This document shows, one piece after another, positions 9,874-26,668 of a DNA stretch of 64,000 nucleotides. The notes under the pieces were generated by a model that searched no databases, was not told the DNA's origin, and was given only the letters and a program-made list of their open reading frames with translations. The stretch is from Anaerohalosphaera lusitana (lineage in GTDB: Bacteria; Planctomycetota; Phycisphaerae; Sedimentisphaerales; Anaerohalosphaeraceae): positions 2,604,001 to 2,668,000 of the forward strand of contig NZ_CP019791.1 in NCBI RefSeq assembly GCF_002007645.1, in the 5' to 3' direction. Numbering within the stretch: the stretch's first letter is position 1; the number at the start of each line of letters is the position of its first letter. The position numbers and the translations under genes were made by a program.

Positions 9874-11646
9874 ATGAAGCACTACACGATAAAGTTCGTT
9901 CCCTCAGGTAAAAGCGTTAGAATTCACGCCGGTGCAACCCTGCTCGAAGCAGCCAGTCACGCCGGCATTATCCTCGATACGCCGTGCGGCGGGGCGGGCA
10001 CATGCGGCAAATGTGAAGTTATGATAGGCCCAGAAAGAGACAAGGCCCTTGCCTGCCAACATGCTGTAAATTCGGATATGACAGTCGAGGTCCCCAAAGC
10101 ATCCCGCTTTTATGAAAAGGGTATTCTCACCGACGGCATCAGGAATGCGATTGAAATCGAAAGTCCGGTCCTGAAGATCTTTGCGGAAAACGGTCGCGCT
10201 CAATATGATCTCAAGTCTTATCTGGACCAAAAAATAGGCGGGCGAAATACTCTTACGACCGAGTTGCTCGATCAGATAAACAGTTACGTTGCCCGCACCA
10301 AGAACGGGATAACTCTTGTGGGGCGTAAATGCACGGAAGGGGACGAAAAAGCACACGACTGGTACACTTTCGAACAGGGCGATACCTCGAATAAGCTTTT
10401 TGGCGTGGCTGTTGACCTTGGGACCACAAGCATAGTAGCCACACTTTTTGATATGCTTACCGGAGAGACTGCTGGTGTCGCGGCGGACGCGAACCCACAG
10501 GAAACTTACGGTGCAGATGTCGTTTCACGTATCGAGTATGCTTCAAAGCCGGACGGCCGGAACCAGCTCCAGAAGAAAGTGGTTGACTGCTTCAATTCCC
10601 TCATCGCCAGGCTGTGTGACAATGCCGACATTGAACCTGAGCAGATTTACGAGATAACCGTCGCTGGAAACACCCCGATGCACCATCTTCTGCTCGGTCT
10701 CCCAGTCGAACAGTTGGGCCAGGCGCCCTACAGGGCACATTCGACCGAACCGCAGGAAATACGCGCAGCGGAACTGGGCATAAAGGCAAATTCAGCCGCA
10801 CACCTGTACGCAATCCAGTGCATCTCGGGCTTTGTCGGTGCTGATACGACCGCGGTGGCGCTTGCGGTGGGGATGGACAAAACCAGCGAAATGACCCTAG
10901 TGATCGACATAGGAACAAATGGCGAGCTGATCCTGGGCAGCTCCGACAAGATGTTTGCCGCTAGCTGTGCGGCCGGACCGGCCCTGGAAGGCGCGAAGAT
11001 CAGCAAAGGAAGCCGCGCGGTTGAGGGAGCCATCGAAGCTGTCGTCATTAACGAAGACGATATCGATGTGGATGTCATCAGCGGAACGGTCCCGAGGTCC
11101 ATATGCGGCAGCGGTCTCATTGACGCTTTGGCGGTCATGACTGAACTGGGGATCATCGATTCGACCGGGGCGATGAAGTCGCAGGATGAGATCGACCAGC
11201 TCCCCAAAAAAATTGCTGAGCGGATAACCGAACGAGACGGCCAGAAATGCTTCATACTTGCCTGGGATGACGGGCAGGGAGAAGTGTATCTAAATCAGAA
11301 GGACATCCGGGAAACCCAACTTGCCAAAGCAGCCATACGAGCGGGCATCGAGATGCTGCTCAAAAAAGCCGGCATTGGCATCGCGGATGTAGAGCAGGTA
11401 CTTGTCGCCGGGGCCTTTGGCAACTACATACGCAAGGAAAGCGCCCTTGGTATTGGCCTGCTGCCCCCTGTGGATCTGCACAAGGTTCACTTCGTCGGCA
11501 ACGCAGCAAGCTCCGGAGCACAGATGGCGCTGATATCATGCTCAGCCAGAAAAACTGCCAGCCAGACATGTGAAAAGATCGAGTACGTGGAGTTGGCAAT
11601 GGAAATGGAGTTCCAGATGCTTTTCGCCGAAGCGCTGATGTTTTAA
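9874..11646 (+). CDS. 2Fe-2S ferredoxin-ASKHA protein, RamA-like activator of corrinoid proteins
   Basis: 590 residues. Residues 1-80 are a plant-type ferredoxin with Cys38, Cys44, Cys47 and Cys61 (CGGAGTCGKC). The rest is the DUF4445/ASKHA ATPase body: FGVAVDLGTTSIVATLFD, AGNTPMHHLL, LVIDIGTNGELIL, CGSGLIDALAVM and a late VAGAFGNYIRKESALGIGLLP. Proteins of this build reduce cob(II)alamin in corrinoid methyltransferases to the active cob(I) state using ATP. They also occur without a known partner. No corrinoid protein lies beside it, but a UroD/MtaA-like methyltransferase is at 39.7 kb in this window. Monocistronic and convergent with the antiporter. Confidence 0.88.
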   Translation: MKHYTIKFVPSGKSVRIHAGATLLEAASHAGIILDTPCGGAGTCGKCEVMIGPERDKALACQHAVNSDMTVEVPKASRFYEKGILTDGIRNAIEIESPVLKIFAENGRAQYDLKSYLDQKIGGRNTLTTELLDQINSYVARTKNGITLVGRKCTEGDEKAHDWYTFEQGDTSNKLFGVAVDLGTTSIVATLFDMLTGETAGVAADANPQETYGADVVSRIEYASKPDGRNQLQKKVVDCFNSLIARLCDNADIEPEQIYEITVAGNTPMHHLLLGLPVEQLGQAPYRAHSTEPQEIRAAELGIKANSAAHLYAIQCISGFVGADTTAVALAVGMDKTSEMTLVIDIGTNGELILGSSDKMFAASCAAGPALEGAKISKGSRAVEGAIEAVVINEDDIDVDVISGTVPRSICGSGLIDALAVMTELGIIDSTGAMKSQDEIDQLPKKIAERITERDGQKCFILAWDDGQGEVYLNQKDIRETQLAKAAIRAGIEMLLKKAGIGIADVEQVLVAGAFGNYIRKESALGIGLLPPVDLHKVHFVGNAASSGAQMALISCSARKTASQTCEKIEYVELAMEMEFQMLFAEALMF

Positions 11647-12783: not shown

Positions 12784-14091
12784 GGTTCATCACGGAATAT
12801 CGGGGAAATAGACATCAACGGCAGTACTTTGTAGCTTTTAGTTACCCGACTATTAGCTCAAAGGAGACTGCCGTTGACTGGACAACATCTTATCAAAAAA
12901 CTCGGCCAATGGGAAGGATATCGTGTTGGAACTGTTGGGCCTGCTAAGAAAGGCCGTGAATTCTGGGTCGAATTGATCCCGGAAAATGGATTCGGAACCT
13001 GTGACGGCTGCGGCCAGGAATGCAGCAGCGTTCACGAGACCGTCCAGCGTTGGATCCGCGATCTGCCGGTCTTCGACAAGACTACCCACCTGCTCGTTCA
13101 CCGAAGGCGTCTGCTGTGCCCCAGATGCGGGCCGAAGCTTGAACGAATCTCCTGGCTGGACCGTTACAGCCGCCACACTACCCGGCTGGTCGAATCGGTC
13201 GCCAGGCTGTGTGATGTGATGAGCATAAAGCATGTGGCCGAGTATTTTTCGCTGTCCTGGTCGACCGTCAAGGACATCCACAAGCGGCATCTCAAGAAGA
13301 AGCTCGGCCCTGTCGACCTGTCAAATGTGGAGCTGCTGGCGATGGATGAATTCGCCATTCAAAAGGGCCACAGATATGCAACGGTTATCATCGATCCGAC
13401 CTGCAAGAAAGTGCTCTGGGTGGGCCGAGGGCGTTCGAGAGCCTCTATCAGGCCATTCTTCGAAATGCTCGGCGACCGCTGCAAAGACATCAAAGCAGTA
13501 GCGATGGATATGAACGCCAGCTTCGAACAGGAAGTTAAACTGCATTGTCCGCAGGCTGAAATCGTCTACGACCTGTTCCATGTCGTAGCGAAGTATGGGC
13601 GTGAAGTGATCGATCGGGTCAGGGTCGATCAGGCCAATCGGCTGCGAGACGACAAGCCCGCCCGCAGGGTGATCAAGGGCTCGCGATGGCTGCTGCTTCG
13701 AAATCGTGAGAACATCGAAAAGCCTGAGGATCTGGTTCGCCTGGATGAGCTGCTGGCAGCCAACGAATCGCTGATGACGACCTATGTGATGAAGGACGAT
13801 CTCAAGCTGCTGTGGAATCTGAGCGATCGCAAGACCGCCGAATCGTGCTGGGGTCAGTGGCTCGATCGAGCCATGCAAAGCGGGATTGAGCCGCTGATGA
13901 AGTTTGCCAAAAGGCTGAGCAAATACGCCGCCGGAATCATCGCACACAGCAGATGGCCGCTGCATACGTCACTGCTGGAGGGGATCAATAACAAGATCAA
14001 AACCATCAAGCGACAGGCATACGGCTATCGAGACGATGAATATTTCTTCCTGAGAATAAGAGCAGCATTCCCCGGTATTCCGTGATGAACC
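12784..14091 (+). mobile_element. Complete ISL3-family insertion sequence
   Basis: A 1308-bp element with 24-bp terminal inverted repeats: left 12784-12807 begins GGTTCATCACGGAATA, right 14068-14091 is its complement with one mismatch (T/C at position 17). It encodes one intact transposase, whose stop lies within the right repeat. ISL3 elements normally make 8-bp target duplications; both flanks here are A-rich (TAAAAAAA and AAAAATAA) and no exact duplication can be called. It lies just 5' of the truncated-looking gene at 14122. Confidence 0.93.
12874..14085 (+). CDS. ISL3-family transposase
   Basis: 403 residues. N-terminal zinc-finger (CDGCGQECSSVHE, then LCPRCGPKLER), a helix-turn-helix around SIKHVAEYFSLSWSTVKDIH, and a DDE-type catalytic region: LAMDEFAIQKGHRYATV, VAMDMNASFEQEV and a final SLLEGINNKIKTIKRQAYGY containing the Glu. 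All motifs are intact and the ORF is unbroken, so the element may still be active. An AAAGGAG stretch 6 nt before the proposed start is a good ribosome binding site. Confidence 0.95.
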   Translation: MTGQHLIKKLGQWEGYRVGTVGPAKKGREFWVELIPENGFGTCDGCGQECSSVHETVQRWIRDLPVFDKTTHLLVHRRRLLCPRCGPKLERISWLDRYSRHTTRLVESVARLCDVMSIKHVAEYFSLSWSTVKDIHKRHLKKKLGPVDLSNVELLAMDEFAIQKGHRYATVIIDPTCKKVLWVGRGRSRASIRPFFEMLGDRCKDIKAVAMDMNASFEQEVKLHCPQAEIVYDLFHVVAKYGREVIDRVRVDQANRLRDDKPARRVIKGSRWLLLRNRENIEKPEDLVRLDELLAANESLMTTYVMKDDLKLLWNLSDRKTAESCWGQWLDRAMQSGIEPLMKFAKRLSKYAAGIIAHSRWPLHTSLLEGINNKIKTIKRQAYGYRDDEYFFLRIRAAFPGIP

Positions 14092-14121
14092 AAAAATAAA
14101 GCCGTACAGATAGTTCTCGCA

Positions 14122-14571
14122 TTGCTATTTTCTATTTATCCGATTTATTACTTATCACATTACCGGCCTTATTATAATCAAGGGCTTTGTCGAGTCAAAC
14201 TCAGAAACTTAGGCAATGCAATACATGATTATCTAAGAACAAATGGTCATTACCCATTGCCGGATAAATGGTGCGATGAGCTACTTGAGTTCGCTAAAAA
14301 GCATCCAGCCCGCTACACCCAGAGTTTCAAAGATTACTTCAAATGTCCAGCTGCCACCGAAGGACTATCTGATTATGCGGTAAATCCAGATGCCAAGCCG
14401 TCATCGGGAGCAGAGACAGTCCTTCTATTTGAGTGTGAAGGTGGGTGGAATAGGTCTGGGCAAGAGGGAATCGCAAGTTTTGAAAATCACAATGGTGAGT
14501 GCTGTGTCTTATTCGTTGACAATCAAGTCAGATGCATAAAGAAAGAATCTTTTCGCCAATTAAAATGGTAA
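14122..14571 (+). CDS. Pseudopilin-like (H-X9-DG/DUF1559-type) protein with 5' end removed by the IS
   Basis: About 149 residues from a TTG at 14122. The reading frame is open leftwards only to the right end of the insertion sequence, where it runs into a TGA inside the terminal repeat; the residues there already look like a membrane-anchor start (KNKAVQIVLALLFSIYPIYY). The next part (CRVKLRNLGNAIHDYLRTNG, HYPLP) resembles the region after the N-terminal helix of planctomycete type II pseudopilin-like proteins, and HNGECCVLFVDNQVRCI resembles their H-X9-DG end with DN in place of DG. The start codon and promoter were probably lost to the IS, so it may not be expressed. Confidence 0.55.
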   Translation: MLFSIYPIYYLSHYRPYYNQGLCRVKLRNLGNAIHDYLRTNGHYPLPDKWCDELLEFAKKHPARYTQSFKDYFKCPAATEGLSDYAVNPDAKPSSGAETVLLFECEGGWNRSGQEGIASFENHNGECCVLFVDNQVRCIKKESFRQLKW

Positions 14572-14960
14572 TGCCGTGCGGTGCAAGTATGTGCGTCACG
14601 AAGACGCGGGAGGTGTCGAATGTAGAAACTGAACGTGTCATGCTCCACAGGTGATGGAGGATTTTGGCCCTCCGTCATCGGCCGGTAGGGGCAGGTGACA
14701 AATCGCCATAGCGCTGCATTGTTAAAGAGCCTTTGTGGTGAGCGGCTATGGAGAAGGCACGCGTGCGGTGCAAGTATTCATCTGAGCTTAAGGCCTTGCT
14801 CTTACGCAAATTAAGAATGGAAATTACGTCTGTATTTGACAGTTTTGGCAGGGGGACTTGGTCGTTTATGAGCTGCTGGATGTTGTGAATGCGGCTACGT
14901 AGGCGCATGTGTTTCGTGAATCTCATAGGGCAGGTTAGGTTTTATCAACGGAATTTCCTG
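14572..14960. other. Gene-free stretch with a 16-bp direct repeat, probable mobile-element debris
   Basis: No convincing ORF on either strand. It holds two exact copies of CGTGCGGTGCAAGTAT, the first starting three bases after the TAA of the preceding gene, and several short stems. A group II intron remnant was considered but no domain V could be folded. Confidence 0.4.
14575..14777. repeat. Pair of 16-bp direct repeats 187 bp apart
   Basis: CGTGCGGTGCAAGTAT at 14575-14590 and again at 14762-14777, exact. The spacing suggests an insertion or a decayed repeat unit; no gene lies between. Confidence 0.6.
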
Positions 14961-15220
14961 CTACGCAGCCAGGCGGTGGTAGGATTTCAGCAGTCCGCCA
15001 AGGCGTTCGATGCACTGGATTTCGGCCGTTTCGTCAAGCTGGTGCTTTGCTTCGATGACCCTGCCCAGCGATTGGTGAATGCGTTCGTGGTGATAATAGT
15101 TGCTGTACTCATCGAGCACGTACTCGAGCTGTTCGACGGACGACAGAATCAGATGATCAAGGCATTCTGATTTTACTGACCTGACGAATCTTTCCGCATA
15201 GGCGTTCAGGTCGAGACTGC
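14961..15220 (-). pseudogene. C-terminal fragment of an integrase-core (DDE) transposase
   Basis: The minus strand reads about 85 codons to a TAG at 14961-14963 with the conserved end of an IS3/rve-type integrase core: LNAYAERFVRSVKSECLDHL followed by VEQLEYVLDEYSNYYHHERI. The catalytic Glu (in SVKSECLDH) is kept, but the reading frame begins abruptly near 15220 and a TAG lies in frame just upstream, so the DD portion of the transposase is absent. A dead remnant. Confidence 0.8.
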
Positions 15221-15230
15221 GTTCGGGCAG

Positions 15231-15385
15231 TCTTAAACGCTTTAAATCTTGCTAAAATTAAGGTGTCATGGTCAGCCAACGCATATTGCTGCGAAGCCCA
15301 GCAACTAACACCCACCTGTCAACGCCGTGGCCCTTGGGTACACGACTGGCTGAAACAGAGAGAAGAAACAGAAGACGAGAAATAG
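15231..15385 (+). pseudogene. C-terminal tail of an unrecognised truncated gene
   Basis: About 51 codons read protein-like up to a TAG at 15383 (LNALNLAKIKVSWSANAY, then WVHDWLKQREETEDEK). The reading frame joins the opposite-strand integrase fragment directly, so the upstream part was cut off at the junction. Family unknown; it is included because the tail looks like coding sequence, not because a function can be named. Confidence 0.3.
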
Positions 15386-15495
15386 GCCAAGTGTGTATAA
15401 GCCTTTCTTAGCGAAAGGGATAAATTATTATAGGATATATTAGCGCATGCATATGATGGTGTTTGTTTTGGTACAGAGGGCAGGTTTTGATAGGT

Positions 15496-15665
15496 TGAAC
15501 GGAGAGGGCGGGATTCGCTTGCGCGGCCCCGGCTGGTGTCAAACCCGCGTAGCAACGCTTCGCGTTGCCGCGTGTTCAAATCCCTTTGGCAATAAGTCGA
15601 TAATTTACAGATAGTTGTATTGGAAGGGTATGTTTTGATGTTATGAACGGAGAGGGCGGGATTCG
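15496..15665. repeat. 22-bp duplication of the tRNA-Ser 3' end (attachment-site-like)
   Basis: The 22 bases starting TGAACGGAGAGGGCGGGATT occur at 15644-15665, where they are the 3' end and downstream flank of tRNA-Ser, and again exactly at 15496-15517. A weaker match (GTTTTGAT) extends further left in both. Duplication of a tRNA 3' end is the footprint left by site-specific integrases. Only about 126 bp lie between the copies, so any element has been lost. Confidence 0.6.
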
Positions 15666-15735
15666 AACCCGCGGTAGGGACATGCCCTACACAGCCTTTC
15701 CAAGGCTGCTCCTTAAGCCACTCGGACACCTCTCC
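15648..15735 (-). tRNA. tRNA-Ser (anticodon GGA)
   Basis: Class II tRNA: acceptor GGAGAGG/CCTCTCC, anticodon stem CAGCC/GGCTG with loop TTGGAAA giving GGA, a long variable arm (GTAGGGCATGTCCCTAC) and T-loop TTCGAAT. The discriminator is G, as usual for serine tRNAs. Its 3' end is duplicated at 15496. Confidence 0.96.
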
Positions 15736-16011
15736 ATGATCTTCGCCTTAGAGATTTCTCTAAGTGCAGTATATGTAAGCCTTTGCATTTTTCGACTTGC
15801 AATTGTTCTTTCGCTGTTGCTGCTTATCTCAGTGCTGCATTTTGGTGGAAGAGATCAATATGAGGGGTTTTATATCACGGCAAGAGTTTCAAGGCAACCA
15901 AAATTACCGGGAACTCTTTATTTCATCAAAAATCACCACTGCTTAGCGTCCAGCTACCTGGAAAGCCCGGTGAGCAAGGTGATCAATGTCAGGTGGAATG
16001 ACGAGAAGTAA
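15736..16011 (+). CDS. Hypothetical small membrane protein
   Basis: 91 codons from an ATG at 15736, immediately after the tRNA-Ser gene on the other strand. Residues 1-45 are hydrophobic (VYVSLCIFRLAIVLSLLLLI), the rest soluble and basic. No ribosome binding site can exist independently of the tRNA gene and no family is recognised, so it may be a fragment of an older gene or a chance ORF. Confidence 0.3.
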   Translation: MIFALEISLSAVYVSLCIFRLAIVLSLLLLISVLHFGGRDQYEGFYITARVSRQPKLPGTLYFIKNHHCLASSYLESPVSKVINVRWNDEK

Positions 16012-16232
16012 ACGACCAACTTAGTTGAAATCAGGCTTGAAAGAGACAAAATTAGCAATTACAATGGCTAAAAAGCATGTGTGACTGGCCTTTAACTGAG
16101 ACAAAGCGTTTTGGTCACTGCGTGTTTGTTTCAGCGGTGTAGCGGTTAGGTTTATCTGTGGTATTCAGCATAAAGATGTGCGTCCAGGGGACGTTGCAAT
16201 AAAGAGTGTAAGTGATATTGTGGAGAGTTAAT

Positions 16233-19200
16233 ATGATGGCACGGTTTTGGTCTGTAGTGTTATTGGCGGTTTTTTCATTTTCTGCATCGGCGGGAACTAT
16301 TTCGTCCAATGACCTCGAGGTGAATCTGGATACTGGATTTCCAGGCATAGAGTCCTATTCTTTCAAGGGTGAAACTGTCGATCTGGGCGGAAGCACAGCT
16401 AATACAGTTTTGCTTAACAAAGAGACATTCAAGCCGGCGGTTGAGTTTGGTGTGACCGGCGACGATTCGGCTGAGTATGTGATGGATTTTGCCGACATCG
16501 GCGTAAAGCTGATCATGGAGGTTGAGACGTCGCCTGAGGCGATTTCGTTTACGATAACGGATATTATCGAGACGAGCGATTTCATGGTCAAGCGGATCGA
16601 GATGCCGGGGCTGGTGCTTGCTCGCGGCGAAGGGGACAGCACTGCCGCTCTGGCGAATTTCCCCAAGGCATCGTATGCATCAGAAAAGCCCGAGGACCGC
16701 GACGTGTTCGGCAAGGTTTCCCAACTGAGCGCGGATCAGCTCAGGTCATCGGCTCCGGACGGGGGCAAGGGGACTTCCTATGCGTTCGTGAGTGACGGCG
16801 ATGTATGCGCGGGTATTTACACCAACGTGATGGAAGAGGACCTTCGCATGATCGTCAACTTTGCGGGTGAAGGTGAGAACAAAACGATCTCTGTCGCTCC
16901 GGGCGAATGGCAGTGGAGGCAGGTCTCATTCATGACGACCGTGCCGCCGAAGGTGAAGCTGATCGTTGCGACCGACAACAACGACGACGGCGAGGTGACC
17001 TGGCAGGATGGTGCGATAGCGTATCGCCGAAACACGCCAAAGGCTTATGGGGCCGGTACGCTCAAGGACCATGTGATCGGGCATATCGCGATGAATTTCG
17101 GCAGCCAGGCGACTAATCCGTTCCTGAGGGTGCTTGACAACGCCAAGAAGGTCTGGCTGTACACGGACGGCATGGGCCAGCATATTCAGTTCAAGGGCTA
17201 TCAGTCGGAAGGGCATGACAGCTCGCATCCGGACTATGGCGGAAATGTCGGACGCAGGCAGGGCGGCAGAGATGATCTCAATTTCGTCATGCGTCGCGGC
17301 CACGACTTCGACGTGCTTTCGGGTGTGCATATCAATGCCACTGAATACCATAGAGAAGCGAAAAACTTCAATTGGGACATTGCAAACGAAGGCAGTATAG
17401 GCTGGAGCTGGCTGGATGAGTCATATCATACGGATTATATTTATGATTCTGCATTTGGTACGCTTTATCCGCGACTGGAAGAAATGCGTGCCGATCTGCC
17501 CTGGCTCGATTTTGTCTATCTCGACGTATTCTACGGACGCGGCTGGCCAGGCTGGCGGATGCATACTAAGACGAACGACCTGGGCATTTTGCAGTTTACC
17601 GAGTTTCCCGGCGTGATGGAACGTGCGGTCATCTGGGACCACGTTGCGAATGACTGGACCCAGGCAATCTGGGGCAAGGGCGACAGGAGCGAGATCGCTC
17701 GATTCATATATTATTCAGAAAAGGACACATTCCGGCACGATCCGCTTTTGCGCGGCACTAACTGCGACGGGTTCATGGGTTGGCACGCGGAACGGGATAT
17801 GCTTCAGACGATCAAGTCCGCCTTTACTGTCAATCTGCCGACGAAGTATCTGCAGCATTTCGAGCTGATCAAGCAAACCGATGATTCGGCTCTGTTTGAC
17901 AGCGGTGCGAAAACCGAGGTCGAAGGCGAAGTCTCAAAGATTTACGGTGCTGATGGGCAGTTTATCGGCTCGTGCAGATATGAAAAGCCGAAATCGCGGC
18001 CCGTGGATAATCTCGTTTTCATTCCTTGGGACCCGATGACCGAAGAGAAGATCTACCACTGGAACGACAAGGGTGGTGAGAGCGATTGGACCGTTCCGCA
18101 GAGCTGGAGCGATGTGGACAGCGCGTACCTGTATAGGCTGACCGACCTGGGTCGGGTATTCGAGAAGGAAGTGCCTGTCATTAGCAATAATGTGAAACTG
18201 ACCGGCATAAAGGCCGGGACGCCTTATGTGCTTTACAGAGATATCGCAGGCCCGCTGCCTCAGATGGAATGGGGCGAAGGTGGTCTTGTTGCTGATCCCG
18301 GATTCGACAGCCATTCTTTTGACTACTGGGAAAAGGCCGAGGATTCCGCGGATGTGAAGTTCCAGAATAACAAGTTCGGGCAGACTGAGCTTATTATGAG
18401 TTCGAAGGGCGGCAAGATCAGTCAGGATATTCACGGCTTAGAGGCCGGCGAGACATATGCCGCTTCGGTATGGTTTTCGGTCAAGGGCGAACAGCCTGCG
18501 ACAATAATGGTCAAGGATTACGAGCCGACATTGGAACTGCCCGCGATCAATAAGGAAATGTGGACGGTTTCCACTTCCTCAGGCAGCGGCAAGGCAGCGA
18601 TCGACGGCAGCGTTGGCAGTATATGGCATACCGCTTACGGCAAGACTACACCAAAGCACCCGCATCATATTACGATCGATTTCGGCAAGACGCTTATGCT
18701 CGACGGCTTCGTTCAGACCGCACGGACGGACATGCATAACGGAGTGATCACGGACTACAGTGTGCAGGCCAGCACAAATGGCGAAGACTGGAACACTGTG
18801 ATCGAGAAGGACACGTTTGAGTATGACGGCAATGAGGCGAAGGTTATGTTTGATGAGCCCGTGAAGGCTAAGTACTTCAAGCTAATCGCTCTGTCAGAAC
18901 ATCGCGGCGGCCCGTGGGCGTCAGTGGCTGAGCTGGATGTGATCGGTGAACCTGCGACAGCGACGAAAGACGGCGGTAAGCCTAAGATCGCGACAGTGAC
19001 CAGGACGATCGACAGTACCGATCTGACTAACTTTACCGACCAGTCGAGCAAGTACATGAGTAACTGGCACCGCATGAAGGTGCTGTTCGATGTGCCCGAG
19101 GGCGTCGATTCAGCCGAGATCGTCATTTCGGCGGCTGAAGGTAAGAGCGATTCGGCCGTATTCTTCGACGATGTCCGGGTAGTGAAGTCCGGCAGAAGCA

Positions 19201-19685
19201 CGCCTCCTGAAGATGCGGAGAATGTTGTTCTTTACGAAGATTTTGAGAATGTCGACGAGGGCTGGGGCCCGTTCATGTACGGCTGGAAAGGGCCGATGAA
19301 CACGCATCTGTCCGAGACGAACCTGCCGTATACAAACGATACGATCGAGGGTGAATTTTCACTGAAGACGCGACATGAACGTCACGAAGGCATAATCTAC
19401 CGTACTGTTCCTGCAACGCTCAAACTGCAGTCCAATACGGAGTATCGTGTCAGTTTTGATTATCTGTCTGACACAACTGATCGGTATACTTTTATCGCCG
19501 CCAGCGGAAGTGATGACGACGGCATGGTTGAACAGGACCTTACCAACGGCGCCTGGGAGCCCACAGCCGAGTCGTTTGTCTTTGAGACAGGTACAGGGTC
19601 GGATTGGTACATCGGGGTTCGAAAGAACAGCCGGGAAAATGGAATCCTCGTAATCGACAATGTTCTTGTTGAGAAGGTGGAATAA
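16233..19685 (+). CDS. Secreted GH101-type endo-alpha-N-acetylgalactosaminidase with CBM32-like domain
   Basis: 1150 residues from ATG 16233, chosen because GGAGAG lies 8 nt upstream; a GTG at 16212 would add seven residues before the signal peptide (FWSVVLLAVFSFSASAG). Residues about 30-280 are a beta domain; the barrel follows with the GH101-typical YQSEGHDSSHPDYG, GVHINATEYHREAKNF, DFVYLDVFYGRGW and LQFTEFPGVM, giving candidate nucleophile Asp431 and acid/base Glu457. A discoidin/CBM32-like domain spans about 775-915 (VGSIWHTAYGKTTPKHPHHI) and another sugar-binding-like beta domain ends the protein. GH101 enzymes release the Gal-beta-1,3-GalNAc disaccharide from Ser/Thr O-glycans, so mucin-like glycoproteins are the likely substrate. 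A terminator follows. Confidence 0.88.
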   Translation: MMARFWSVVLLAVFSFSASAGTISSNDLEVNLDTGFPGIESYSFKGETVDLGGSTANTVLLNKETFKPAVEFGVTGDDSAEYVMDFADIGVKLIMEVETSPEAISFTITDIIETSDFMVKRIEMPGLVLARGEGDSTAALANFPKASYASEKPEDRDVFGKVSQLSADQLRSSAPDGGKGTSYAFVSDGDVCAGIYTNVMEEDLRMIVNFAGEGENKTISVAPGEWQWRQVSFMTTVPPKVKLIVATDNNDDGEVTWQDGAIAYRRNTPKAYGAGTLKDHVIGHIAMNFGSQATNPFLRVLDNAKKVWLYTDGMGQHIQFKGYQSEGHDSSHPDYGGNVGRRQGGRDDLNFVMRRGHDFDVLSGVHINATEYHREAKNFNWDIANEGSIGWSWLDESYHTDYIYDSAFGTLYPRLEEMRADLPWLDFVYLDVFYGRGWPGWRMHTKTNDLGILQFTEFPGVMERAVIWDHVANDWTQAIWGKGDRSEIARFIYYSEKDTFRHDPLLRGTNCDGFMGWHAERDMLQTIKSAFTVNLPTKYLQHFELIKQTDDSALFDSGAKTEVEGEVSKIYGADGQFIGSCRYEKPKSRPVDNLVFIPWDPMTEEKIYHWNDKGGESDWTVPQSWSDVDSAYLYRLTDLGRVFEKEVPVISNNVKLTGIKAGTPYVLYRDIAGPLPQMEWGEGGLVADPGFDSHSFDYWEKAEDSADVKFQNNKFGQTELIMSSKGGKISQDIHGLEAGETYAASVWFSVKGEQPATIMVKDYEPTLELPAINKEMWTVSTSSGSGKAAIDGSVGSIWHTAYGKTTPKHPHHITIDFGKTLMLDGFVQTARTDMHNGVITDYSVQASTNGEDWNTVIEKDTFEYDGNEAKVMFDEPVKAKYFKLIALSEHRGGPWASVAELDVIGEPATATKDGGKPKIATVTRTIDSTDLTNFTDQSSKYMSNWHRMKVLFDVPEGVDSAEIVISAAEGKSDSAVFFDDVRVVKSGRSTPPEDAENVVLYEDFENVDEGWGPFMYGWKGPMNTHLSETNLPYTNDTIEGEFSLKTRHERHEGIIYRTVPATLKLQSNTEYRVSFDYLSDTTDRYTFIAASGSDDDGMVEQDLTNGAWEPTAESFVFETGTGSDWYIGVRKNSRENGILVIDNVLVEKVE

Positions 19686-19752: not shown

Positions 19753-19876
19753 TAATATTGGACCTGTGTATTTAAGTGCTCAAAGCAATTTAACCGCAAA
19801 AACTCCTTGTAAGGCGCAGTTTCATTGTGTGGGTGTTCTAAAAGGAAGATATTTATTATTTTTTGAAGGGGAAAGC

Positions 19877-21613
19877 ATGCGTATCTGCCTGGCTGCAGTG
19901 GTAATCTTATCGGGGTTCGGTGCCTGTTTTGCAGGGCCGGCGGGGGAATTGAAGCCTGATTACGGCCAGATCGGCCAGGATATTGAGCTTGTCTCAGTGC
20001 CTGATGAGGAACAGGCTTATTACCAGGTGCAGAGGACCCGAGACGGGCAGGATCAATTGTTTCTTACACCTAATAACGGTTTCTTTGCTGAAGGCAGGCT
20101 CATGTGCGGTGGCGAAGGACTTGAAATAATAAAGCAGGACCGTCTGAACCAGGGCAAATCATTCGGGTTCATTACCGGCTGGAATAAAGGAGATATTGCT
20201 GAGTGGGGCATATGGCTTGAAAATACAGGAAAGCTGAATGCCTATGTAAACACAAGCGGCGACAATGATGCGGTATTTGTGATTCACCTGGATGGTCAGC
20301 GTGAAGTGTTCGCAAGTAAATCGGGTCAGAACGGGCAACCGACACCTGCGGGGTGGGGCCGGTTCAGTGTTAAAAAGAATGGCTTTTACAAACTGAAGCT
20401 CGAATGTCTGAAGTCCGGAACAGGCAAATCCAAAGTGCACTGGATCGAACTAAACGGCAGTTCCGCAGAAAAAGGCGGCGTGGTTCGCCTGCGATGGCGA
20501 CCTTCGGCGGCTCATACCAAATTCTCTTCTTCTAAGGTAGAAGGTCCTGTACGTGCGTGGGTTATGGAAATGGATGCAATGCTTGGTGAGCACGGCTTTT
20601 ATTCACCTGTAACTACACCTTTCGGCTACTACGGGCCTACGTGGCAGGCGAACGGCAAGGTAGGATCGGGTTTTAATTTTTCGCTATGGTCTTACGGCCG
20701 CGGCAAAAAGGAGCCCCCGGTTGATCAGCTTTCCCATCTGCTGGCGGTAGGCAGTCCGAAGGCAAGATTCGGCGGTTTCGGGCACGAAGGGACCGGCGTC
20801 AAGGTGCGCGGCTGGGCTCCACTGGAAGGACGCCAGACTCAGCGTCAGGCCATCGCGCTGCGTCTCGAGCCCGGTGAAACTTATGACACCTACTACAGTT
20901 ATTTCCATGCGTCGGATGAGAAGGTCTGGAAGCTGTTCGGTGCGGGCAACAAGTACAACAAAAATAATACGGATCCAGCGGATAAGTCGCTGTGGGTCGG
21001 ATCATTTATTGAAGTTCCCGGCCCGGCCCAAAGACAGCGGACAGGACCTTATCAAAGGCGCATGCGTTACCGCGGTTGGGTGATGAATGCGGATGGTAAG
21101 TGGTATCCGCTTGACAGAATGCGCAACGGCAATATCAATCGCAGCACCGGCTTGACCCACACTAAACGCGGGGTTAATGAGAACGGCTGGTTCTATTTGC
21201 AGACGGGTGGGTGGAAACGCTATAAAGGTAAACCCAATAAAAATTTTATCGAACACCCGGATCCAACTGAATTGAGTGAGGTGCCATACATGGATCGGGA
21301 GGATGTTATGACGATCCAGAGCATGCCTTGTGAGATTGAGATTTTGAAAGCTGAAATTGAAGCAGATAAGCTGGTTCTGGGTTTCGGTATTCGCGGGTAT
21401 GGCGGTCAAGTAACGGCTTATTGGGGAGACAAAGATTGTCTGACGCTCACTGATCGCTGGCAGAATTCAAAAGTGATTGCCGATGATGCGAACGAGGGCT
21501 TGAATAAGGTGGTTATTTCGGACATCTCGGCCGATAGCGATCTGTGGGTGAGGCTACTGCTTGAGAACGATCGGGGCCGGTTTTTCACTCAGAAAAGCAG
21601 TCAGGCCAAATGA
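19877..21613 (+). CDS. Secreted DUF3472/DUF5077-like carbohydrate-associated protein
   Basis: 578 residues from ATG 19877, selected for the upstream GAAGGGGAAA ribosome site and the signal peptide that follows at once (RICLAAVVILSGFGACFAG). The N-terminal half reads as a DUF5077-type beta sandwich (YYQVQRTRDGQDQLFLTPNN). The central part, with SFGFITGWNKGDIAEWGIW and AWVMEMDAMLGEHGFYSPVT, resembles DUF3472; the C-terminal 90 residues form an additional beta domain. The family is only tentatively assigned and no enzymatic residue can be named. It lies between the GH101 enzyme and the propeller-like protein, all on the plus strand, so it is part of the glycan locus. Confidence 0.7.
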   Translation: MRICLAAVVILSGFGACFAGPAGELKPDYGQIGQDIELVSVPDEEQAYYQVQRTRDGQDQLFLTPNNGFFAEGRLMCGGEGLEIIKQDRLNQGKSFGFITGWNKGDIAEWGIWLENTGKLNAYVNTSGDNDAVFVIHLDGQREVFASKSGQNGQPTPAGWGRFSVKKNGFYKLKLECLKSGTGKSKVHWIELNGSSAEKGGVVRLRWRPSAAHTKFSSSKVEGPVRAWVMEMDAMLGEHGFYSPVTTPFGYYGPTWQANGKVGSGFNFSLWSYGRGKKEPPVDQLSHLLAVGSPKARFGGFGHEGTGVKVRGWAPLEGRQTQRQAIALRLEPGETYDTYYSYFHASDEKVWKLFGAGNKYNKNNTDPADKSLWVGSFIEVPGPAQRQRTGPYQRRMRYRGWVMNADGKWYPLDRMRNGNINRSTGLTHTKRGVNENGWFYLQTGGWKRYKGKPNKNFIEHPDPTELSEVPYMDREDVMTIQSMPCEIEILKAEIEADKLVLGFGIRGYGGQVTAYWGDKDCLTLTDRWQNSKVIADDANEGLNKVVISDISADSDLWVRLLLENDRGRFFTQKSSQAK

Positions 21614-21614
21614 C

Positions 21615-21711
21615 AAAAGAAAAAAGGTTCGGTTGAGGATGTGAGTGAAGTTTCAAGCACATCTCTACGCATCTCAGGCCTCAGCTCTCGATGGTAGCCG
21701 AACCTTTCATT
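21615..21711 (-). ncRNA. Tandem small RNA unit A (three-way junction, own promoter and U-tail)
   Basis: Minus-strand unit with a -10 box TACAAT at 21718-21723. The transcript would begin near 21711, fold a closing stem (AAGGTTCGG at 21698-21706 with CCGAACCTT at 21624-21632), a CATC/GATG hairpin and a GATGTG/CACATC hairpin, and end in a TTTTTTCTTTTG tail. The junction bases GATGCGTAGA are shared with unit B. Ends are estimates. Confidence 0.6.
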
Positions 21712-21813
21712 CATAGTATTGTACGCTGCATGTGACGGCTCTGCGACAATGAATTGACCAGGTGCATAAATAAATCATGAATAGAGTAAAGACCCCTATA
21801 GCCTGAAGGGATG

Positions 21814-21917
21814 CGCAAAACAAAAGGCTCGGAAGTAATTGTGGTGTGTCAATTGCAACCACAATTCTACGCATCTGTCGGCTTTTCAATCACCTTCAGA
21901 TGGGTGCCGAGCCTTCT
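21814..21917 (-). ncRNA. Tandem small RNA unit B (three-way junction, own promoter and U-tail)
   Basis: Minus strand; -10 box TATAAT at 21924-21929. Closing stem AAGGCTCGG / CCGAGCCTT (21907-21915 with 21824-21832), hairpin CATCTG/CAGATG, then a nine-pair hairpin AATTGTGGT/ACCACAATT, and a TTTTGTTTTG tail. Stem sequences differ from units A and C but pairing is kept. Ends are estimates. Confidence 0.62.
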
Positions 21918-22039
21918 GATTATATTATACTTCATAGCTGGACATGTGCGAATAATTTGGCCAGGATTCCCTTCAAATTAGCGCCTTTCAGGGTGCGGCC
22001 CGATACGTGTGTAGGGGCTGCCTTGAAGATTCGATCTGC

Positions 22040-22147
22040 GCAGAATGAAAGGCTGGGTTTTGGTCGTGATAGTCTATTGCTATCACTATCACATTCCTGC
22101 TCATCTGTTTGTTTATTATTACCTTAAGATGGGTGCCCAGCCTTCTA
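22040..22147 (-). ncRNA. Tandem small RNA unit C (three-way junction, own promoter and U-tail)
   Basis: Minus strand; -10 box TATAGT at 22153-22158, the same distance from the closing stem as in unit B. Closing stem AAGGCTGGG / CCCAGCCTT (22136-22144 with 22049-22057), hairpin CATCT/AGATG, then GTGATAG/CTATCAC, and a weaker TTTCATTCTG tail. Shares GGCACCCATCT with unit B. Ends are estimates. Confidence 0.58.
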
Positions 22148-22295
22148 ATTATACTATACAGCAAACTGGCAGTCGGTGCGCGATGATATGAAAATTTGCC
22201 CTTATAATTTTTGATTTGAGCATTGACGCTGATCTGGTTATAGTAGGTACCGGTAACATGGTAGTGTGGGGGTCTTTGACGCAGGAGTGTGAAGC

Positions 22296-23750
22296 ATGAA
22301 GAAAAAAACAATGATGATGGTAGGTCTTTTGATATTTTCAGGCGTAAGTTTTGCAGCGGCGGAGGCTCGCGAGGATGCTGAACTCTACGAGTGGAAGAAT
22401 GGGGATGGCATGAATGGCGTGTTTCCGCACATCACAGTAATGGCGCCTGGGGCTGGCAGTGACAGCGAGGCAGGCGTCGGTGCGATGATCCCGTGGGCGG
22501 ATCGTCTTTGGGTGATAGGCTATGTTGCCCACATCCGCGGCGAGAATCTCGGCCTTTTCGAGCTCAAAGAGGATATGTCATGGCGGCGGCATCCTGCCTC
22601 GGTGACGGGAACGTTTGCGAATCGTTTCATCCACTGGGAGAGCAAACAGGCAATAATCGGCCCGCATCTGATCGATGAAAAAGGCAAAGTAAGGACGATC
22701 GAGCAGCTTTCAAAGCACAGGCTGACTGCAACTTGCTATCACCTCGAAAAGCCTCAGGCTATGGTCTATTTCCTGACCATGGAGGGGTTGCTTTTTGAGG
22801 TCAACGTTAACACACTGGAAGTGAAGCAACTGGGTGACTTGACTAAAAAGCTATATGTCGAGGGTATCTGGCCGCACTGGAAGGGCATGTGGAGTGCTCA
22901 GGGCAAGCTCGTCGTAGCGAACAACAGCTACGGTGAGGGCGAACACATGGGCAAACGCCATGCCGGCCGGCTTGCCGAGTGGGATGGCGAGGGTGAGTGG
23001 AAGATACTGGAGAAAAACCCATTCGTCGAAGTAAGCGGGCAGACCAGACGCGGCAAATATGGCGGCGCCTTGTTCGCAACCGGCTGGGATGAACGGTCGG
23101 TCATCATGCGGGTGTTGTCTAATGGCAAATGGAAAAGATACCGACTTCCCAAAGGTAATCACACATATGATCACGGTTGGAATACAGAGTGGATGCGTAT
23201 CCGTGAAGCGCAGACCGAACGCTATTTGATGGACGTATTCGGCATTTTTTACGAGATGCCGGCAATTGTCTATGATAACAGTGTCTGGGGCGTCAAGCCG
23301 ATATGTTCGCATCTGCGGCTGATCCCTGATTTCTGCAGTTGGCGGGGTTTTTTCGTTATGGGCAGCGATCAGACAGAGCATAACGTCGGTCAGCCTCAGT
23401 CGGGTCTTTATTTCGGCAACATAGATGATCTCTGGCAGATGGGCAAGCCGACCGGCTGGGGTGCTGTTTGGCGTAAGACTGAGATTGAGGCGGGCGAGAC
23501 CAGTGATCCGTTCCTGATGACGGGTTTCGACAAAAAGGTACTGCATCTTGCTGTCGAAAGTGAGGATCCGATGACAATCACTGTTGAAGTGGACTTTCTG
23601 GGCGACGGCATGTGGAAGGAATATGAAACGTTCAACCTCGAGCCCGGAGGGTATGTCCACCATGAATTTCCTGATGCGTTCAGCGCGCATTGGGTGAGGC
23701 TGAAGACAGATGGAGACTGTAAGGCTACGGCCCAGTTCATGTATAATTAG
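22296..23750 (+). CDS. Secreted propeller-like protein of the glycan locus, function unknown
   Basis: 484 residues with a signal peptide (MMMVGLLIFSGVSFAAAEA) and a good ribosome site (GCAGGAG, 10 nt before ATG). The body contains repeated beta-strand blocks such as WADRLWVIGYVAHIRGENLG, IHWESKQAIIGPHLI and MVYFLTMEGLLFEV that suggest a beta-propeller, followed by a C-terminal beta domain (TITVEVDFLGDGMWKEYETF). No named family is recognised and no catalytic residues can be assigned. Located between the small RNA array and the clan-D-like glycosidase, 44 bp upstream of the latter, so probably co-transcribed with it. Confidence 0.7.
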   Translation: MKKKTMMMVGLLIFSGVSFAAAEAREDAELYEWKNGDGMNGVFPHITVMAPGAGSDSEAGVGAMIPWADRLWVIGYVAHIRGENLGLFELKEDMSWRRHPASVTGTFANRFIHWESKQAIIGPHLIDEKGKVRTIEQLSKHRLTATCYHLEKPQAMVYFLTMEGLLFEVNVNTLEVKQLGDLTKKLYVEGIWPHWKGMWSAQGKLVVANNSYGEGEHMGKRHAGRLAEWDGEGEWKILEKNPFVEVSGQTRRGKYGGALFATGWDERSVIMRVLSNGKWKRYRLPKGNHTYDHGWNTEWMRIREAQTERYLMDVFGIFYEMPAIVYDNSVWGVKPICSHLRLIPDFCSWRGFFVMGSDQTEHNVGQPQSGLYFGNIDDLWQMGKPTGWGAVWRKTEIEAGETSDPFLMTGFDKKVLHLAVESEDPMTITVEVDFLGDGMWKEYETFNLEPGGYVHHEFPDAFSAHWVRLKTDGDCKATAQFMYN

Positions 23751-23794: not shown

Positions 23795-26668
23795 ATGCAA
23801 CTTTTGCCGGCCTTGAGGTCTTATGCTTTGTTTTGTTTATTTGTTTGCAGTGTTTTCTCCGGTTTGCTTTTGGGCGACGAAAATGGCGAGGAAGTGTCAC
23901 TTATCCGTCGGACAGAAGTTGCCCAGGTGGAAACAGACTGGATGATCAATGATGTGCCACAGAAAGCCAGCGTTTGGCAGGATGGTGATGATGAGATCGT
24001 GCTCGGGAACGGCCTGATCGAGCGGCGGTTCAAGCTTGCTCCGAACTGTGCGACGGTGGCATTCGACAACTTGATGACGACAGAGTCGATTCTGCGGGCA
24101 GTAAGGCCCGAGGCTGTCATAGTGCTGGATGGGATAGAATTTGATGTAGGTGGGCTGATCGGGCAGCCCAATCATGCGTACCTCACGGACGAATGGATCC
24201 AGCAAATGCAGGCCGATCCGAAGGCGTTTCAATTTGTCAACTTTGAGATCGGCGAAACGAAAAAACCTTTCGACTGGAAGGTCACCAGATACTGCACGAA
24301 CAAGCAGTGGCCCGCACCGGGCGTGAGTCTGCGGCTGGATTTCGAGATAGACAAAGCCTCTCTTATGAATCGAAATAGTAAGCTGCTGGGCAGTTCAGTT
24401 GGGCGTGAGCTGCTGTTTAGTGATGAGTTTGATCTGCTCGATAACTCCTGGTCGGTGCACGCGGCTTCACAGGAGCGTTCTTCTTTCTCCAACGAGGGGA
24501 AGGTCGGCGAGATATACACGCCTGCAAATACGGCCCTTTACGCTGAGAAAGACCTGCCAAAAGGCACCAGGCTGGTAGTATGCTTTATTGACCCCGGCAC
24601 CGATGACAGCGCTACCTGGGGACCGGGCATGGCGATTGTCTGGGATGAACACATTGTTAAATTCAATATTAGGCCGGGCAAAAAGCAGTTCGGCATCACT
24701 CATAACGGCAGCGAACAATTTGCAGGCCGGGCCAAGCCGGGGCAGGCCTATTACCTGCGGATGCGGCTTGATGGTGGTAAGGTTCATTGCGAAGCCAGTG
24801 AGGACGCTGATAAGTGGTTCAGCGTTGGATCGGTTGTTTCAGGCAGTTCAAATGCTGAGCCCAGGGCGGTTCGAATTGGCAAAATGGATGCTCGCGGTGG
24901 AGGCAACGATTACGGACAGGCAGGTGATTGGGTTCGGCTGCACGTGGATGATTTTGCTGCTTATGGTCAGTTCAATGCGGATAAGCTGGGAGATGAGTTT
25001 GAACAGTTAAAAACTTTGACAGACGTGAAAGTTTCTGTTCACTATGAGCTTTACGATGGTCTGCCCTTGTTGTCTAAGTGGATAACAGTTACCAACGGTG
25101 CTGACCGATACGTTCGGCTCAATTCGTTTACAAGCGAGGTGCTGGCGGCGGTTGAACCCGAGTCCGTGGTCGGCGATCGCGGCGGTGCGTGGATGCATCC
25201 GAATATTCACGTCGAAAGCGAGTACGAGTTTCACGGTATGGACGCAAAGAGTGCGAACGAAATGGTGCATTGGGTGGAGGACCCGCAGTACAAGACGCAG
25301 GTTTCCTACGGGCTGAAAACGCCTTGCCTGTTAAAGGTAGAGCCAAGGATCGGACCTGATGTGCTGATCGGAGCGGGTGAGGAATTTGTTAGTCCGCGAA
25401 CATTTGAACTTGTTCATGATAGCCGGCAGCGCGAACGGAAAGGCCTGCAGGTCAGACGGATGTATCGAACCGTAGCGCCATGGATTACCGAGAATCCCAT
25501 CATGATGCATGTGCGTTTCGCTGACTGGGATTCTGTAAAGCGAGCGGTTGACCAGTGCGCTGAAGTCGGATTCGAGATGGTCATACTGACCTTCGGCAGC
25601 GGTTTCAATATCGAGAATGAGAGCGAGGAGTATCTAGCGAAGATGAAGAAGATGGCAGACTATGCCCACAGCAAAGGGATCGAGCTGGGCGGATATTCGC
25701 TTCTGGCCAGTAGGCGTATCAGCGATGAGCACGATGTAGTGAATCCTGAGACAGGTAAGCCCGGCGGCTTTGCAACATTCGGAAATTCTCCCTGCCTGGA
25801 GAGCGAGTGGGGACAGGATTATTTTCGTAAGCTGTACCAGTTTTATGAGGAGACAGGATTTGATCTTTTGGAGCACGACGGGTCATATCCGGGCGATGTA
25901 TGCGCGTCGAAGGACCATCCGGGGCATGAAGGACTGGGCGATTCGCAGTGGAAACAGTGGAAGAAAATTTCGGACTTCTATAAGTGGTGCCGGGGCCGCG
26001 GCATATATCTCAATGTACCCGACTATTACTTTCTGACGGGTTCAAACAGGACCGGCATGGGCTATCGTGAAGTCAACTGGTCGCTCCCGCGTGAACAGCA
26101 GATCATACACGCCAGACAAAATATCTACGACGGCACATGGACCAAGACGCCCAGCATGGGCTGGATGTTCGTGCCACTGACACAGTATCACGGCGGCGGG
26201 GCGGCTGCGACTATCGAACCCCTGAGCGAGCATCTCGACGCGTACGAGGCTCACATGGCCAATCTTTTCACCACCGGCGTGCAGGCCTGTTATCGCGGGC
26301 CAAGACTTTACGACACTGACGAGACTAAAGACGCGGTCAAGCGATGGGTGAGCTTTTACAAGCAGTATCGCGAGCTTCTGGATTCGGACATCATCCATGT
26401 CCGGCGTGCGGACGGGCGGGATCTGGACTGCATGATGAGCGTAAATCACCGGCTGGACAAAAAAGCCATGATCGCGGTGTTTAATCCCACCGATGATATG
26501 ATTGAGAAGACGATTACGATTCCGATGTATTATACGGGTCTGGACAGATCGGCAGAGGTGACAAGCAGGTTCGGCAAGACGAAACGCTACAGGATCGATC
26601 GGCAGTATGACATGGAGCTGCCGGTGTCCGTAGGTGCCGGGCAGATGATGTGGTACCTTGTAGAATGA
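23795..26668 (+). CDS. Secreted alpha-galactosidase-like (clan D type) glycoside hydrolase with inserted LamG-like domain
   Basis: 957 residues; signal peptide at 1-28 (LRSYALFCLFVCSVFSGLLLG). Residues 50-200 are the N-terminal beta domain (VLGNGLIERRFKLAPNCATV). Residues about 205-385 look like an inserted concanavalin/LamG-type module (LLFSDEFDLLDNSWSVHAA, YYLRMRLDGGKVHCEAS). The supersandwich then resumes (VSVHYELYDGLPLLSKWITV) and leads into a TIM barrel: DQCAEVGFEMVILTFGSGF, AHSKGIELGGYSLLASRR and GFDLLEHDGSYPGDV, where the Asp of EHDGSYPG is the candidate nucleophile of the GH27/GH36-like clan. The substrate is probably an alpha-linked Gal or GalNAc residue, inferred from the neighbouring GH101 enzyme. 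Confidence 0.72.
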   Translation: MQLLPALRSYALFCLFVCSVFSGLLLGDENGEEVSLIRRTEVAQVETDWMINDVPQKASVWQDGDDEIVLGNGLIERRFKLAPNCATVAFDNLMTTESILRAVRPEAVIVLDGIEFDVGGLIGQPNHAYLTDEWIQQMQADPKAFQFVNFEIGETKKPFDWKVTRYCTNKQWPAPGVSLRLDFEIDKASLMNRNSKLLGSSVGRELLFSDEFDLLDNSWSVHAASQERSSFSNEGKVGEIYTPANTALYAEKDLPKGTRLVVCFIDPGTDDSATWGPGMAIVWDEHIVKFNIRPGKKQFGITHNGSEQFAGRAKPGQAYYLRMRLDGGKVHCEASEDADKWFSVGSVVSGSSNAEPRAVRIGKMDARGGGNDYGQAGDWVRLHVDDFAAYGQFNADKLGDEFEQLKTLTDVKVSVHYELYDGLPLLSKWITVTNGADRYVRLNSFTSEVLAAVEPESVVGDRGGAWMHPNIHVESEYEFHGMDAKSANEMVHWVEDPQYKTQVSYGLKTPCLLKVEPRIGPDVLIGAGEEFVSPRTFELVHDSRQRERKGLQVRRMYRTVAPWITENPIMMHVRFADWDSVKRAVDQCAEVGFEMVILTFGSGFNIENESEEYLAKMKKMADYAHSKGIELGGYSLLASRRISDEHDVVNPETGKPGGFATFGNSPCLESEWGQDYFRKLYQFYEETGFDLLEHDGSYPGDVCASKDHPGHEGLGDSQWKQWKKISDFYKWCRGRGIYLNVPDYYFLTGSNRTGMGYREVNWSLPREQQIIHARQNIYDGTWTKTPSMGWMFVPLTQYHGGGAAATIEPLSEHLDAYEAHMANLFTTGVQACYRGPRLYDTDETKDAVKRWVSFYKQYRELLDSDIIHVRRADGRDLDCMMSVNHRLDKKAMIAVFNPTDDMIEKTITIPMYYTGLDRSAEVTSRFGKTKRYRIDRQYDMELPVSVGAGQMMWYLVE

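Follow-up and report, generated by a model that had tools for sequence, protein, structure and literature searches.

Genomic context of the three units

The 682 bp between the genes at 19766-21613 and 22296-23750 hold three related units on the minus strand, which we numbered in the order in which they are met on that strand. Positions are those of the window, by which we mean the whole 64,000-nucleotide stretch of Anaerohalosphaera lusitana DNA that was analysed. The units and the genes around them were as follows:

2070-5093: GH123 gene, part of the glycan-degrading surroundings
16212-19685: GH101 gene, part of the glycan-degrading surroundings
19766-21613, plus strand: gene for a DUF3472 protein (domain match), convergent neighbour; context, outside the RNA family
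21614-21709, minus strand: unit 3, candidate structured RNA (model R1 90 bits, leave-one-out recovery, pair analysis); P1 AAGGTTCGG/CCGAACCTT, P2 CATC/GATG, P3 GATGTG/CACATC, tail TTTTTTCTTTT
21816-21918, minus strand: unit 2, candidate structured RNA (model R1 105 bits, folding, pair analysis); P1 AAGGCTCGG/CCGAGCCTT, P2 CATCTG/CAGATG, P3 ATTGTGG/CCACAAT, tail TTTTGTTTT
22041-22147, minus strand: unit 1, first on its strand, candidate structured RNA (model R1 110 bits, folding, pair analysis); P1 AAGGCTGGG/CCCAGCCTT, P2 CATCT/AGATG, P3 GTGATAGT/ACTATCAC, tail TTTCATTCT
22216-22244: promoter-like TTGAGC-17-TATAGT of the 484-aa protein gene (promoter scan)
22296-23750, plus strand: gene for a 484-aa protein whose start, by eye, looks like a signal peptide, divergent neighbour; context

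The 484-aa protein had no family match and no solved relative. Unit 3 abuts the DUF3472 gene at its stop codon (21613). All three units lie on the strand opposite to both neighbouring genes and are therefore not leaders of either.

Several other features of the window were noted. The 957-aa protein encoded at 23795-26668 was without a Pfam match, and over its first ~60 residues it was marginally similar to subunit I of cytochrome bd (E 0.006 and 0.015), which a shared transmembrane stretch might explain. A RACo/AcsV-like corrinoid reductive activase (9874-11646), scoring under the AcsV cut-off, is unconnected to the RNA units. The interval 12874-15736 is a decayed mobile zone with an ISL3 transposase (12874-14085) together with a match to group II intron D1D4 (14656-14775); the two short ORFs scanned beside the intron match were without a reverse-transcriptase domain. 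Beside the tRNA-Ser gene (15647-15736), part of its 3′ end is present a second time (15497-15517), which might be the trace of an integration event. A retron or other reverse-transcriptase-linked non-coding RNA would have an adjacent reverse transcriptase gene, and none of the 13 ORFs that we scanned from 9874 to 32685 contained a reverse-transcriptase domain.

Predicted promoters

The following promoter-like elements were assigned to the units:

22153-22158, minus strand: -10-like box TATAGT of unit 1, read in the sequence, its position related among the units
21924-21929, minus strand: -10-like box TATAAT of unit 2, read in the sequence and found by the promoter scan
21947-21952, minus strand: -35-like box TTCGCA of unit 2, found by the promoter scan
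21718-21723, minus strand: -10-like box TACAAT of unit 3, with TACTAT just downstream as an alternative

The -10 boxes lie 206 and 229 bp apart, exactly as the original prediction had given them. The -35 boxes of the units are weak, and TCGC-like letters are also seen by eye upstream of units 1 and 3. On the minus strand, the promoter scan found only the promoter of unit 2 (TTCGCA-17-TATAAT, 10/12), one of two sites found in the region where 1.5 were expected by chance. When the 70 nt upstream of P1 were aligned, z-scores against single-base shuffles were 4.9 for units 1 and 2, 2.8 for units 2 and 3 and 2.1 for units 1 and 3. This similarity indicates that the promoter region was duplicated along with the units; the evidence is clear for units 1 and 2 but less so for unit 3.

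A common three-way-junction fold

The three units share a three-way junction in which a closing stem, P1 (starting at 22144 in unit 1, 21915 in unit 2 and 21706 in unit 3), is joined to two hairpins, P2 and P3, and followed by a U-rich tail. The original prediction of three tandem homologous minus-strand units, each with a -10 box, a closing stem and two hairpins, described what is present, and the closing stems it listed could be read directly in the sequence. Folded singly, the units had minimum free energy z-scores of -4.5 (unit 1), -5.0 (unit 2) and -2.9 (unit 3). The RNAalifold consensus reached -26.9 kcal/mol, against a mean of -5.0 (sd 2.3; z -9.6) for 1000 column shuffles that preserved gap and conservation classes, none of which was as low.

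Five of the 22 modelled pairs were changed on both sides, two in P1 and three in P3, in agreement with the earlier claim that bases change together on both sides of the stems; these counts come from a covariation depth of three paralogues from one locus only. Out of 66 cells, 93.9% were paired, compared with 34.4-45.5% when the partner strand was slid by 1-3 columns. Of 500 shuffles, 6 attained the observed number of doubly changed pairs, 12 that of paired cells and 40 that of further pair types. Under a per-unit null of independent mutation, unit 3 had p = 0.014 and unit 1 had p = 0.079. Identity between units was 77-84% in paired columns and 40-56% in unpaired columns, indicating that the fold is what has been kept. 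Taken from sequence comparison, the structure and paralogy of this predicted tandem RNA family are well supported.

Conservation within the fold was less uniform than first described. The second hairpin was said to keep CATC(TG)/(CA)GATG, and four of the five P2 pairs (CATC/GATG) are indeed invariant, one pair being broken in unit 3. The third hairpin was said to differ entirely in sequence while always pairing. It is mostly paired, but three of the four unpaired cells are in P3 (two outer cells in unit 1 and one inner cell in unit 3, the fourth being that of P2), and its core TGTG/CAC is invariant across the three units, with three invariant pairs. The junction bases held to be conserved are each found in two of the three units, with GGCACCCATCT replaced by GGCTACCATCG in unit 3 and GATGCGTAGA by GATGAGCAGG in unit 1. 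By eye, units 1 and 2 have in common the loop AAGGTRAT in P2 (L2) and the loop GCAATWGAC in P3 (L3); the P3 loop was misplaced by MAFFT.

Within P3 of unit 1 (22066-22092), a direct duplication, GTGATAGTGATA, was seen by eye on the 5′ side, with ACTATCAC matching it on the 3′ side; it seems that this hairpin grew by an internal repeat yet stayed paired.

The invariant GATG of P2 places an ATG at the same point of all three units (in the P2 3′ strand), from which small ORFs could be read as related micropeptides (MSRNVIV.., MRRIVVAID.. and MRRDVLE..). After the ATG come codons for (S/R)R, V-AID is common to units 1 and 2, and changes fall at the third position in part of the codons. However, the distances from the ATG to the 3′ strand of P1 (47, 42 and 40 nt) put the three in different frames, all three stay open through the U-tail, the peptides diverge after ~11 codons and no Shine-Dalgarno sequence was seen by eye at the usual spacing. 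The differing frames and the missing stops make a peptide role unlikely, and this was the least probable of the explanations we considered.

Paralogy and distribution

Global alignment of the units against each other gave z-scores of 11.1 (units 1 and 2), 9.1 (units 2 and 3) and 5.0 (units 1 and 3) versus single-base shuffles, and when a covariance model was trained on just units 1 and 2, it recovered unit 3 in a search of the window (39.9 bits, E 2.4e-8). The R1 match of unit 3 spans 21616-21709. A sibling sRNA group is recognised by at least two homologous sRNA-like genes in one genome, and such a set is found here, provided that the units are genes, as their sequences suggest.

In the organism's own 4.25-Mb genome, model R1 matched the three units only (E 10), and no further copies were found by nucleotide search at E 0.001. 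We then searched four overlapping sets of genomes, each including the organism's own. No full-length relative beyond its own three units was found in 148 genomes of the order (E 0.1), and none in 39 genomes of the family (E 1, laxer filters), 397 of the class (E 0.01) or 392 of the phylum (E 0.001). The order search returned one other genome with a 39-nt match (E 0.057). The family search gave weak matches in 10 of the 38 other genomes (E 0.003-0.74), nine of them spanning 35-42 nt, and one family genome held a partial match of 69 nt. Motif patterns applied to 161 genomes of the order matched the organism's own genome alone, the genus being represented among them by this genome only. The patterns also matched viral contigs (28 and 23) and genome contigs (8), but none of these 59 loci passed R1 at E 1. 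Plasmids and phages gave no match, and none of five further sequences (two 19-kb flanks and three loci of DUF3472 relatives) passed R1 at E 10.

It should be noted that, in a control, the two-sequence model missed unit 3 in a search of the whole genome, yet found it in the window, which indicates that the first search step loses copies as divergent as this and that absence elsewhere is provisional. The original prediction looked to a search across planctomycete genomes for hits beyond the locus, and full-length hits were found at none of the four levels. We do not take this as a refutation, as the covariation within the locus stands on its own and the search is lossy. Provisionally, the family may be described as restricted to its lineage, with no relative found outside the locus.

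Two weaker signals in the organism's own genome were set aside. An R2 match at 346202-346277 had an E value of 0.78 and was taken as chance. The 16-mer GGCACCCATCTNAAGG occurred with up to three mismatches at 80 places (2 exact, in units 1 and 2, and 78 inexact) versus 37 for the reversed control, an excess possibly due to coding bias; R1 supported none of the near matches, so the excess was not counted as further copies.

The same searches bear on whether the units are repeats at the level of DNA, such as a MITE or other small mobile element with inverted ends, or cruciform sites, which would mimic RNA structure. The outer stem does form an inverted repeat at the unit ends, and the ISL3 transposase and group II intron fragment lie ~7-9 kb away. 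Yet no other full copy was found in the 4.25-Mb genome, no target-site duplication was seen by eye around the units, the similarity runs upstream into the -10 region, and compensated internal hairpins would not be expected of a MITE. We consider this explanation very improbable.

Strand and termination

The opposite strand gave an alifold consensus nearly as good as that of the minus strand (z -8.6), so that it is the -10 boxes and the U-tails of units 2 and 3 that point to the minus strand. These two units have good U-tracts after P1, as had been described for all three; in unit 1, the U-tract (TTTCATTCT) is poor. The plus-strand sequence after unit 3, TTTCATTCAT, is at least as good a tail as that of unit 1 on the minus strand. 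By eye, it is plausible that P1 and the tail act as a terminator, a good one in unit 3, a fair one in unit 2 and a weak one in unit 1; a simple terminator scan limited to short loops reported none of the three P1 stems. In four of the ten family genomes, the weak matches were aligned by residue and proved to be short GC-rich terminator hairpins with U-tracts. The hairpins at these four loci align to P1 and the tail of our units, which in this respect resemble terminators of the lineage.

Such resemblance raises the question of whether the units are cis-acting or antisense elements, namely terminators, possibly bidirectional, that insulate the genes at 19766-21613 and 22296-23750 and are not free regulators. 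The position of unit 3 against the stop codon at 21613 would fit, as would the folding of the plus strand and the weak tail that unit 3 has there. A terminator, however, has no need of a conserved -10 box, a conserved junction or second and third hairpins, nor of three diverged copies with a compensated P3 and an invariant P2, and no good plus-strand U-tract was seen by eye after P1. This makes a purely terminating role improbable.

Possible partners and targets

No match to Hfq (PF17209) was found in the organism's own genome, which is complete, while the same search was positive in 5 of 14 control genomes; the genome-encoded Hfq on which an Hfq-dependent sRNA would rely was not found. TROVE (PF05731) was likewise without a match in this genome and was found in 1 of the 14 controls, so that the TROVE protein expected of a Y RNA/Ro RNP was also not found.

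Targets were predicted among 38 hand-picked start regions in the window (of 66 ORFs of at least 150 aa), giving 114 tests. The best p was 0.013 and five tests had p ≤ 0.05, as would be expected by chance; among these five was the start of the GH123 gene versus unit 3 (p = 0.020). Pairing to the four nearby start regions (GH101, DUF3472, 484-aa and 957-aa protein genes) hardly differed from background, the best of these 12 tests reaching p 0.05. The original prediction had suggested that the units possibly regulate the flanking glycan genes. With the units on the strand opposite to both neighbours and start-region pairing near background, this suggestion is unsupported.

In unit 2, L2 contains AAGGTGAT (21889-21896), which resembles a Shine-Dalgarno extension and which we take to be complementary to the usual 16S 3′ end; unit 1 has AAGGTAAT at 22118-22125. 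A role of L2 (AAGGUGAU) as a Shine-Dalgarno mimic was rejected, the full match being found in unit 2 only and lost in unit 3.

Discussion

The explanation we favour, tentatively and with slightly more doubt than confidence, is that the locus holds three tandem sibling sRNAs with their own promoters, in which P1 serves as both end cap and terminator and which act in trans through their loops without Hfq. The three genes would have arisen by tandem duplication, each would be transcribed on the minus strand from a sigma-70-like promoter of its own into an RNA of ~95-107 nt, and each RNA would fold into a three-way junction whose P1 joins the 5′ and 3′ ends and, with the U-rich tail, would provide intrinsic termination and end protection. 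A conserved framework (P1, the base of P2, the junction and the base of P3) would then display two hairpin loops. The siblings would act in trans without Hfq, most likely by pairing of these loops with mRNAs, and the differing loops would direct each sibling to a partly separate set of targets. We infer from the sequence that the units are expressed, where their transcription starts, that it terminates at P1 and that the RNAs act in trans through loop pairing.

It should also be noted that the unpaired loops are the least conserved part of the units, which counts against an sRNA that pairs through its loops. The same three sRNA genes could instead encode RNAs that bind a protein or the ribosome through P2 and the junction, by sequestration or as a scaffold, with three copies for dosage. 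The invariant sequence does lie in helices (four of five P2 pairs and three P3 core pairs) and the unpaired columns drift; the genome also has no Hfq match, and no local target signal was seen. The better conservation of helices than of loops brings this reading close behind loop pairing. The motif bound by CsrA-type proteins is ANGGA, and none was seen by eye in the units. There is, moreover, no TROVE/Ro match in the genome and the partner is only hypothetical, and the loops AAGGTRAT (L2) and GCAATWGAC (L3) common to units 1 and 2 would not be needed for pure protein binding. We regard protein or ribosome binding as possible though doubtful, and place loop pairing somewhat ahead of it.

Of the original prediction of a tandem family of structured small RNAs, the structure and paralogy stand well, and the interpretation overall is partly supported. 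Going further, the units may represent new, lineage-restricted, Hfq-free sibling sRNAs built on a duplicated closed-end three-way-junction scaffold, in which P1 would at once close the fold, protect the ends and terminate transcription, while two displayed recognition loops would be exchangeable and diversify from copy to copy. We rate this broader proposal as unlikely, while keeping it in consideration. If true, three compact, diverged and self-contained sRNA genes would offer a clean entry to Hfq-free sRNA action; if this is merely a tandem sRNA family without an assigned role, it would be a modest addition to the RNA catalogue. Among the matches listed by our literature searches on planctomycete small RNA or Hfq, titles and the beginnings of abstracts contained no trans-acting sRNA of the phylum.

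The original prediction knew of no named RNA family with this consensus, and we found no catalogued match either. None of the 4227 families of Rfam 15 matched the region at its gathering score, and at E 10 the only matches were two to snoZ185 (E 5.1 and 9.1), which scored 15.0 and 14.2 bits where gathering requires 50 and were taken as chance. Nor was a description of the RNA family found in titles and the beginnings of abstracts among the literature matches listed.

In bacterial Y RNAs, the 5′ end pairs with the 3′ end to form a closing stem, and the molecule also has a U-rich tail and internal elements. The three units share the pairing of the ends and the U-rich tail. They are unlike Y RNA/Ro in that their own genome is without a TROVE match and the units are without an Rfam match of such a kind.

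STAXI and pan are structured motifs often found two or three in a row, and in this respect the three units, as structured motifs in tandem, are like them. STAXI has been described as a pseudoknot found close to genes for DNA-handling proteins, and pan as a stem that carries bulged A residues and lies upstream of pantothenate genes (PMC2864571). The three units differ from both in architecture and context, and have no Rfam match.

A review (PMC4211561) presents sibling sRNAs, tandem pairs included, as an established kind, with AbcR1/2, OmrA/B, PrrF1/2 and the csRNAs as examples, and describes them as often arranged in tandem and thought to stem from duplication. It cites >65% identity for AbcR of Agrobacterium, and for OmrA/B it describes shared and divergent segments. 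The three units are unlike the sibling sRNAs compared in that they have a predicted three-way-junction fold with paired ends, no Rfam match, a genome without an Hfq match and no counterparts found in the relatives searched. They are like sibling sRNAs, as described in that review (PMC4211561), in being several homologous units of sRNA type in one genome and in tandem. The RNA family therefore appears to be new to the catalogues, while the kind to which it would belong, sibling sRNAs, is already known.
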